From Gammaproteobacteria bacterium (GTDB taxonomy: Bacteria > Pseudomonadota > Gammaproteobacteria > Enterobacterales > Permianibacteraceae): a stretch of 64,000 nucleotides of DNA. The stretch is taken from assembly GCA_016182845.1 (NCBI GenBank), contig JACPFT010000019.1:1-64000 (forward strand), read 5' to 3'. Below, one piece after another: positions 10,714 through 12,796 of the stretch. The first letter of the stretch is position 1; the number at the start of each line of letters is the position of its first letter. The notes beneath the pieces were generated by a model that searched no databases, was not told the DNA's origin, and saw nothing but the letters and a program-made list of their open reading frames with translations. Both the position numbers and the translations under genes were made by a program.

Positions 10714-10753
10714 CATGAAGCGCAAACAACCGACAACATGAAGCGCAAACAAC
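10714..10753 (+). repeat. 23-bp tandem duplication over the algZ start codon
   Basis: CATGAAGCGCAAACAAC occurs at 10714-10730 and again at 10737-10753, a period of 23 bases. The first ATG (10715) opens an 8-codon frame, MKRKQPTT, whose TGA (10739-10741) overlaps the second ATG (10738), the true algZ start. Because 23 is not a multiple of 3, the first copy cannot extend the protein. Confidence 0.85.
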
Positions 10754-11790
10754 AATGGCTGGCCTTCACGCCGCCCAAGGACGCATTCTTCCTGCCGGAT
10801 CTCTGTTCGGTGGGCGCGGTCTTTCTCGTGGTCCTGGGCGGCGAGCTCCTGGCTTTCCTCTTCACCCTGATGGGCAGCGATCTGCGCCAACCTTGGAGCG
10901 AGCTGGGCCTGACCTCGCTGTTCATCCAATGGGTGGCCCTGGGCTCGGCGGCCCTGCTCTGCCTGGGTCGGCGCTGGCTGCGACGGATGGCGCCGGCGCG
11001 GGCCAGCCTGGTCATGCTGGCCCTGGTGTCGGCGGTGTGCCTGCTGTCCAGCCTCGTGGCCCTGCGCCTGCAGGTCCTGACCCTGCCCGCCGGTTGGCAG
11101 GGCCAGGGTCTGTTCCTGGTGCGCAATCTGCTGGTCTCGGTCCTGCTCGCCGGCCTGGCCTTCCGCTATTTCTATCTGCAGCACGAGATGCGCCAGCGCC
11201 TGGTGACCGAGTCCCAGGCGCGCATCGCCGCCCTGCAGGCGCGCATCCAGCCCCATTTCCTGTTCAATAGCATGAACATCATCGCCAGCCTGACCCGGGT
11301 CGATCCCATCAAGGCCGAGCGCGTGGTCGAGGACTTGGCCAGCCTGTTCCGGGCCAGCCTGGAGCAGCCGGGCACGACGGTTTCCCTCAAGCGCGAACTC
11401 AGCCTCTGCCGCCATTACCTGGACATCGAGCAACTGCGCCTGGGCGAGCGCCTGAGCGTCGACTGGCAGGTGGACGACAATGCCCTGGTCGCTTCCTTGC
11501 CCCTGCTGTCCTTGCAGCCCCTCCTGGAAAATGCCATTTATCATGGGATCTCGCGCATCACCGAGGGCGGCCTGTTAAGCCTCAGCGTGCGCGCCCGGGA
11601 GCGGGGCGTGGAGATCCACATCACCAACCCCGTGCCGCGCCTCGTCCCCCGGGCCGAGCCTGGCAACCAGATCGCTCTCGGCAATCTGCGCGAGCGCCTG
11701 GCTCTGCTCTATGGCACGGCCGCCAAGCTCAATCTGCGCGAGGAAGACGGGCAGTTCTGCGTGAGCCTGTGGATACCCTTGAGCGAGTAA
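10738..11790 (+). CDS. algZ: LytS/AlgZ-type membrane sensor histidine kinase
   Basis: 350 residues from MKRKQQW. About four membrane helices (24-46, 58-77, 88-110, 126-145) precede a LytS-family kinase core: phosphoacceptor His173 in IQPHFLFNSMN, and an ATP-binding N-box in LQPLLENAIYHG. This kinase type has no classical HisKA dimerisation motif. It pairs with algR downstream, which in Pseudomonas controls twitching motility, alginate and biofilm traits. The neighbours argH and hemCDXY support the algZ assignment over other LytS proteins. The start lies in a 23-bp duplication with an overlapping upstream mini-frame. The stop is one base before a 270-bp inserted element. Confidence 0.88.
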   Translation: MKRKQQWLAFTPPKDAFFLPDLCSVGAVFLVVLGGELLAFLFTLMGSDLRQPWSELGLTSLFIQWVALGSAALLCLGRRWLRRMAPARASLVMLALVSAVCLLSSLVALRLQVLTLPAGWQGQGLFLVRNLLVSVLLAGLAFRYFYLQHEMRQRLVTESQARIAALQARIQPHFLFNSMNIIASLTRVDPIKAERVVEDLASLFRASLEQPGTTVSLKRELSLCRHYLDIEQLRLGERLSVDWQVDDNALVASLPLLSLQPLLENAIYHGISRITEGGLLSLSVRARERGVEIHITNPVPRLVPRAEPGNQIALGNLRERLALLYGTAAKLNLREEDGQFCVSLWIPLSE

Positions 11791-11791
11791 A

Positions 11792-12061
11792 TAGGGCCTG
11801 TTTACCTTTACCCCGCCATCGCGTTGCCGCCCCAAAAGGCGCCAGGCGAGGCGCGAAACATGAGGTTTAGTCATTCTAAATGAATGTTGAGCAACGAAGC
11901 CTGGCGCCTTTTGGGGCGCAACCCGGAGGGACGGACTGCCTTTGGGCACATTCCGGCGTTACTCGTCGCTCATGTGCAATGAGCACACCACGCTCCTCGT
12001 GCCTTGGACTGTGCCCAAAGGCAGTCCGTCGCGAAGGTGTGGTAAAGGTAAACAGGCCCTA
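11792..12061. mobile_element. 270-bp MITE-like element with 21-bp terminal inverted repeats
   Basis: The ends are perfect 21-bp inverted repeats (11792-11812 and 12041-12061; TA followed by GGGCCTGTTTACCTTTACC). Inside are two long hairpins. Hairpin A has arms 11823-11847 and 11899-11922, about 23 bp with one bulge. Hairpin B has arms 11930-11950 and 12010-12030, 21 bp perfect. No open frame of interest lies inside. Counting the terminal TA as a target duplication, removal leaves TAA-AT-AACC-ATG, a compact algZ/algR junction, which supports insertion. A TA duplication would fit mobilisation by an IS630/mariner-type transposase, but no such gene is in the window. The algR start lies only three bases after the element, so its ribosome-binding region is now element sequence. 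Confidence 0.75.
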
Positions 12062-12064
12062 ACC

Positions 12065-12796
12065 ATGCGCCTATTTATCGTCGACGACGAACCCCTGGCC
12101 CGCGAGCGTCTCAAGCGCCTGGTGGCGGAACTGCCGGATACCGAGGTGGTCGGCGAGGCCGGCAATGGCCTGGCCGCCCTCGGACATCTGCCCGAGGCGC
12201 AGGCCGACGTGGTGCTCCTGGATATCCGCATGCCGGGCATGGACGGCCTGGAATGCGCACGCCATCTGAGCCTACTGCCCGAACCGCCGGCGGTCATCTT
12301 CACCACGGCCTATGGCGAATACGCCCTGGAAGCGTTTCGCGTGCATGCCGCCGGCTATCTGGTGAAGCCGGTGCGCGTCGAGGAGCTGGCCGAGGCCTTG
12401 CGCCATTGCAAGCGGCTCACCCGCCCGCAGCTGGCCCAGCTTGCCGCCGATCAGGGCTCGCCCCGGCGCAGCCATATCAGCGCCCGGGTGCGCGGCCAGA
12501 TCGTGCTGGTGCCCATGTCCGAAATCTATTATTTCCAGGCCGATCAGAAATACGTCACCGTGCGCCATGCCGGCGGCGAGCTCTTGATCGAGGAGGCGCT
12601 CAAAGGCCTGGAGGATGAATTCGGCGATCTCTTGGTGCGCATCCACCGCAACGCCCTGATCATGCGCGAGCAGATCGCCGGCCTCACGCGCGACGCAGAG
12701 GGCAAGCAATACATTCGCCTGCGTCATACCGACGAGCTCCTGGAAGTCAGCCGCCGCCATTCGGCGGAACTGCGGCATTTGCTGAAAGAGCTGTAA
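12065..12796 (+). CDS. algR: LytTR-family response regulator AlgR
   Basis: 243 residues. The receiver domain (1-115) has acidic pocket residues Asp7 and Asp8, phosphoacceptor Asp53 (LLDIRMPGMDG) and Lys101. The C-terminal LytTR DNA-binding domain (about 140-240) contains ISARVRGQIVLVPMSEIYYFQADQKYVTV-type sequence. It is the partner of AlgZ. The start MRLFIVDDEP at 12065 is the only one consistent with a receiver domain; the open frame upstream runs through the inserted element. The ribosome site is poor (AGG about 10 bases upstream, inside the element end), so translation may be altered compared with the ancestral operon. Confidence 0.93.
   Translation: MRLFIVDDEPLARERLKRLVAELPDTEVVGEAGNGLAALGHLPEAQADVVLLDIRMPGMDGLECARHLSLLPEPPAVIFTTAYGEYALEAFRVHAAGYLVKPVRVEELAEALRHCKRLTRPQLAQLAADQGSPRRSHISARVRGQIVLVPMSEIYYFQADQKYVTVRHAGGELLIEEALKGLEDEFGDLLVRIHRNALIMREQIAGLTRDAEGKQYIRLRHTDELLEVSRRHSAELRHLLKEL

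Follow-up and report, generated by a model that had tools for sequence, protein, structure and literature searches.

In the window analysed here, a 64,000-nt stretch at the start of contig JACPFT010000019.1 from a gammaproteobacterium of the Permianibacteraceae, a PF06580 kinase gene and a LytTR regulator gene are neighbours and constitute an AlgZ/AlgR-type pair (Table 1). The algZ stop and the algR start are 274 nt apart, compared to a distance that is for the most part -26 to +25 nt, and in some cases longer (up to 239), in AlgR-containing loci of other genomes. What fills this junction, how did it arrive there and what might it do to the output of the two genes?

A mobile element between algZ and algR

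The initial annotation had described the junction as filled by a MITE-like element, apparently inserted at a TA target, with perfect 21-bp terminal repeats, two internal hairpins and no coding sequence. This architecture was borne out: the terminal arms (11792-11823 and 12030-12061) are 91% complementary over 32 nt, the outer 21 without mismatch, the arms of hairpin 1 (11828-11847 and 11899-11918) are 100% complementary over 20 nt and those of hairpin 2 (11930-11954 and 12006-12030) 96% over 25 nt, and the 270 bp contain chance ORFs only and encode no transposase. The terminal 19-mer has two matches in the window, only at the two element ends (0.01 expected by chance). Folded as RNA, the element reaches -179.2 kcal/mol (z = -15.6 compared to shuffles) and as DNA a z of -15.3; the outer stem still forms when ~90-100 nt of flanking mRNA are included. 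On the opposite (-) strand, hairpin 2 is matched by the covariance model built on hairpin 1 (model R1, 114 positions; 65.6 bits in the window copy, L001); it is thus a distant copy of hairpin 1, and the element a pair of inverted, diverged hairpin units.

Table 1. Features of the algZ-algR junction, in positions of the window
Feature	Position	Strand	Remark
algZ/LytS-type sensor kinase gene (PF06580)	10738..11790	+	stop one base before element
Whole MITE (270 bp, terminal TA dinucleotides included)	11792..12061	+	full-length copies elsewhere in genome, 94-96% identity
Left terminal inverted repeat (TIR) TAGGGCCTGTTTACCTTTACC	11792..11812	+	
Outer stem inner part, left arm	11813..11822	+	imperfect in young copies, near random between distant elements
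Hairpin 1	11828..11918	+	20-bp perfect stem and 51-nt structured conserved loop
Conserved junction GCAACCCGGAGGGACGG between hairpins 1 and 2	11918..11934	+	overlaps stem bases
Hairpin 2	11930..12030	+	25-bp stem (96%) and 51-nt loop
Outer stem inner part, right arm	12031..12040	+	
Right terminal inverted repeat	12041..12061	-	perfect match to left one
algR-type response regulator gene (PF00072 and PF04397 LytTR)	12065..12796	+	ATG three bases after element

Copies were searched with BLAST in the genome of origin (G000), a draft assembly of 26 contigs and 3.82 Mb. Besides the window element, four further full copies were found at 94-96% identity (i.e., five at 94-100%), together with three divergent copies, one of 76% identity that shares the ends and two (L006 and L008) that share the core and have different outer arms. 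TIR-only remnants of ~50 bp, comprising little beyond the two ends, lie at C6:94225 and C10:316432. All six intact TAGGG-type copies carry TA at both ends, beginning TAGGG and ending CCCTA, and copies occur in both orientations, adjoining unrelated genes. Short, bounded by TIRs, devoid of transposase and dispersed in copies with the same ends, the 270-bp element is a MITE. An autonomous copy was sought in this genome by its end pattern: the additional ends proved to be either single and decayed or part of remnants consisting of TIRs only, and a search for an IS5 transposase (E <= 1e-10) found none. A start codon lies 2-3 nt beyond the end of four of the copies or remnants: L001, L005 (C3:24495), L006 (C18:130505) and L159 (C19:189971). 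The genes that follow are algR, and what we take from their N termini to be cca, a RIO-kinase gene and bpt, respectively. Our impression, formed without a statistic, is that such proximity at four sites is more than random intergenic insertion would lead one to expect.

At the junction itself, the element had been placed two bases after the algZ stop and four before the algR ATG; these figures are differences between positions, and the actual intervening bases are one (A, after the TAA at 11788-11790) and three (ACC, before the ATG at 12065). The companion claim, that excising the element with one TA restores a six-base junction, agrees with the sequence, which gives TAA-ATAACC-ATG, a spacing within the -26 to +25 nt range of the relatives. 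Model R1 matched none of the 69 algZ-algR junctions scanned in other genomes, and the short junctions of relatives suggest a TA empty site here. A base-precise empty site was also sought on plasmids: the Azotobacter flanks were found only filled or beside an IS630 transposase, and on plasmid p2014S05-249-1 the element is absent at a homologous site, the Pseudomonas flank pair being too diverged for a base-precise join. The copies in the genome, the TA at copy ends and the short junctions of relatives together support insertion of a MITE at a TA target.

A probable IS5-family partner and a widespread family

Plasmids were searched with a 30-base Halomonas version of the element end, and IS5-family transposases proved to be annotated under matches in Halomonas, Azotobacter and Aeromonas plasmids. 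The corresponding ISs are ~860 bp long, are bounded on either side by TAGGGNCTGTTGACGTTT-type ends and have TA as their common flank; the Halomonas transposase scored 281.6 bits against NCBIfam NF033580 (IS5, transpos_IS5_3; cut-off 110), and the IS transposase also matches Pfam DUF4096/DDE_Tnp_1. Three similar IS copies read in genome G023 have the ends TAGGGCCTGTTGAGGTTTC. In genome G057, TAGGGTCTGTTGATCTTT is at once the left end of the IS and the sequence of several MITE ends, among them both ends of L249, and IS5 transposase and MITEs occur together in genomes G057, G207 and G018. The genome of origin yielded no IS5 transposase at E <= 1e-10 in a 26-contig draft from which multicopy ISs could be lost, and its own version of the end, GTTTACCTTT, shows no more than near-identity to the ends of the ISs found; its copies could be relics, or the draft assembly could lack the IS. 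These comparisons of ends point to an IS5-family IS that has TAGGGYCTGTTKAYSTTT-type ends and targets TA as the partner of the MITE family.

Two other origins were weighed. The strong hairpins might belong to an ordinary intergenic region or a bidirectional terminator of the operon, and the initial annotation would have given way to this reading had the ends been unique and the region an ordinary, conserved one. Instead, other copies of the element lie elsewhere in the genome, which refutes an ordinary intergenic region, the junctions of relatives are short and there is no terminator-like T tract, so that we assign this reading a negligible probability. The annotation had also proposed an IS630/Tc1-mariner-type MITE, a proposal with which the TA target and TA ends agree, as in the IS630-linked MITE RUP (PMC2229807). 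However, ends of this kind flank IS5-family transposases in several genera, and the plasmid end search gave IS5 transposases wherever a transposase was annotated under a match; an IS630/mariner partner was rejected as very improbable.

An element in genome G207 (L227, span 1145) was considered as a transposon with ERIC-type ends, and turned out to be an IS5-family IS with TAGGGCGTGTTGATCTTT ends inserted into a TATACCC-ended MITE. Genome G504 contains ~40 near-identical copies (L231-L259) with the ends TAGGGCCTGTTAACACAAATT, and no IS5 transposase was recovered from it with the Halomonas query (E <= 1e-20); these copies probably reflect a recent spread.

Of 296 genomes of the order, 71 gave a match to model R1 and represented 32 of 99 genera; in a sample of 274 genomes from the class there were 45, in 41 of 222 genera. 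The family elements extracted span ~265-271 bp and have TAGGG-like ends in most cases. Genome G001 bears variants with hairpin 1 only (L044), with hairpin 2 only (L049) or with extra palindromes nested in the loops; in four of its elements (L037, L039, L041 and L043), palindromic modules of ~50 and 66 nt are inserted in the loops at fixed places. Plasmid copies were found in Azotobacter, Halomonas and a clinical Pseudomonas aeruginosa. The copy L141 (P. aeruginosa PA83 plasmid NZ_CP017294.1, 8545-8716) has TAGGGTCTGTTGACG-type ends and is flanked by acyl-CoA dehydrogenase and CaiB genes; its conjugative plasmid is a possible route for spread between species. A literature search with MITE/IS5 terms and core sequence words found no earlier description of the family, which is weak evidence as it covered open-licence papers only; the family is apparently undescribed. 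It is a MITE family of known type, but new and broadly distributed.

Replaceable stems and conserved loops

Covariation was tested in a ten-copy alignment (A1) with 500 shuffles. Standard pairs occupied 97.4% of cells compared to 86.8% in shuffled and 38-42% in slid controls, and both sides had changed in 44 of 97 pairs compared to 20.5 after shuffling; neither value was reached by any of the 500 shuffles, and it is the effect size that counts, as the structure was derived from the same alignment, which favours it over the slid control, and related copies inflate the shuffle comparison. Among 18 elements from different genomes, mean pairwise identity was only 0.35-0.37 within the inner part of the outer stem, compared to ~0.7 for the tips and 0.66-0.73 for loop 1 and the junction, part of this contrast between stem and loop being ascertainment, since model R1 was built on loops. 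Loops and junction are conserved across orders, and all three stems vary with compensation.

Among the five young copies, substitutions were rarer at paired (1.9% per site) than at unpaired sites (6.2%), and five symmetric double changes were found, four of them Watson-Crick, compared to 0.17 expected (maximum of three in 20,000 random placements). In the window copy TAGGGTCTG became TAGGGCCTG at both ends, and in L004 TTTACC became TTTAGC at both ends. Mismatches in the outer stem comprised 24 G-T and 22 A-C, with no G-T or strand preference, a near-equality that maintenance of pairing in DNA, on either strand, would predict. In the hairpin-1-type stems of the covariance-model alignment, which was chosen with pairing in mind, G-T exceeded A-C by ~3:1, as would fit pairing at the RNA level. 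Loop 1 of L001-L005 (window 11857-11888) has AACAT...ATGTT where the class-wide loop has GGAGA...ACGAC; this change, from an imperfect to a perfect inner stem, looks like another sign of palindrome correction. Template switching has been described as a means by which hairpins arise and are maintained (PMC8794818), and the correction of quasipalindromes by template switches is a published process (PMC8794818, PMC8604942). Given the symmetric double changes in young copies and the near-equal G-T and A-C counts of the outer stem, the stems are most likely kept complementary by arm-to-arm template-switch (quasipalindrome) correction of the DNA.

Strong covariation and loops conserved across orders are also what a functional structured RNA would display, be it a regulatory leader of algR or an sRNA, the compensatory changes then recording selection on RNA pairing, and the G-T excess in hairpin-1-type stems goes in the same direction. 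We nevertheless consider such an RNA improbable: the copies lie in both orientations beside unrelated genes, hairpins 1 and 2 are of opposite polarity, the stem sequences are almost entirely replaceable, the outer-stem mismatches have no G-T preference and a search of Rfam with the element gave only sub-threshold microRNA/snoRNA matches, with no family above its gathering score.

Starting from what was observed directly (the family, its copies and ends, the IS partner in relatives and the covariation), we infer transposition in trans and template switching. A non-autonomous MITE of ~270 bp would have been moved by an IS5-family transposase recognising TAGGGYCTGTTKAYSTTT-type ends and inserting at TA, and would have come to lie between algZ and algR, where the junction was short; its partner IS is not found in this genome today. 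As ssDNA or RNA, the element can fold into an outer stem carrying the two hairpins; the stems would be kept complementary at the DNA level by template switches from arm to arm, and loops and junction would be similar by descent or constraint. Taken as a whole, we hold this explanation to be highly probable.

Relation to known elements and consequences for algZ-algR

ERIC/IRU/RU-1 elements of Enterobacterales and Vibrionaceae are likewise intergenic MITEs with TA termini and a long stem-loop (PMC10969869, PMC2229807). However, ERIC is ~127 bp long with one hairpin and TATACCC ends, whereas the window element has 270 bp, two hairpins and TAGGG ends; with ends, size and hairpin number that are not those of ERIC and only marginal R1 similarity, it was rejected as an ERIC. 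A more distant kinship, with ERIC and the family of the window element as branches of one superfamily of loop-conserved MITEs, is compatible with the IS5-MITE explanation. It is suggested by R1 matches in genome G057 that combine ERIC-type ends TATACCCAAGTTACCTCAAGATGC with the two-hairpin build, and by an E. coli ERIC locus, where ERIC itself gives the best R1 match (12.3 bits; E = 0.025 over 900 bases); as this match is a weak one, confined to the base of the loop, and as the ends and size of ERIC differ, we regard the kinship as possible and rather doubtful. The G057 elements (L233, L237, L241 and L252) have the two-hairpin build and TATACCCAAGTTACCTCAAGATGC ends alongside TAGGG-ended elements in the same genome, and may be a link to ERIC. 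When plasmids were searched with the ERIC-type end, none of the matches coincided with a transposase.

With IS5-family ISs (NF033580), the element shares terminal repeats and a TA target, IS and MITE with the same end occurring in one genome; it differs from them in having no transposase and an interior of two hairpins. RUP of Streptococcus pneumoniae is shorter than the 270-bp element and has an IS630 partner. It is likewise a MITE, for which mobilisation in trans by a resident IS with similar ends has been proposed (PMC2229807). The Correia/NEMIS elements of Neisseria are also TA-ended MITEs, with TIRs of ~24 bp (PMC10969869, PMC2229807), but measure 107-155 bp and contain promoters, the longer form also an IHF site, whereas the promoter scan of the window element was negative. 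Correia/NEMIS would be the closest model for an effect on the algZ-algR mRNA.

That the element now supplies the ribosome-binding region of algR and a hairpin within the operon, as first annotated, follows from the sequence: the algR leader is the right TIR, and AAAGG and CAGG, ~15 and ~8 nt from the ATG, both lie within the outer stem. No terminator- or promoter-like site was found within the element, the scan for a terminator or an outward promoter being negative and no terminator-like T tract being present. Insertions of ERIC/IRU/RU-1 in transcribed regions change mRNA levels (PMC10969869, PMC2229807), those of ERIC alter mRNA decay (PMC10969869), and Correia transcripts folded at their TIRs are cut by RNase III (PMC10969869, PMC2229807). 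If the operon is read through, the algZ-algR mRNA would carry the 20-25 bp stems of the element, which would be RNase III substrates as in Correia elements, separating the algZ and algR messages, and a TIR would form the algR leader. A regulatory effect on algR is plausible, and the AlgZ:AlgR ratio might change, as the initial annotation suggested; these particular mRNA effects, RNase III processing and a TIR leader, we put forward tentatively, at somewhat under an even chance. It may be speculated that a ribosome terminating at the algZ stop, which precedes the stem by one base, opens the base of the stem and frees the algR start.

On a wider scale, the family of the window element, its ERIC-ended relatives and perhaps ERIC could form a class-wide superfamily in which conserved loops sit on replaceable, self-correcting stems, outlast the transposon ends and are recognised, in the form of folded ssDNA, by a factor of the host or of transposition; the outer stem, when closed, would place the algZ stop beside the algR start and preserve translational coupling over the 274-nt insert. 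We consider this larger picture unlikely as it stands. A partner transposase is rarely assigned to bacterial MITEs, and here one family, shown to be widespread in Gammaproteobacteria, is tied to IS5 ends in several genera. Its stems provide a natural record of how sequence is corrected from arm to arm, a mutational process for which reporters have otherwise been used; they also warn that covariation alone is no proof of RNA function. How such an element changes the output of two genes transcribed together could readily be tested on the algZ-algR insertion.
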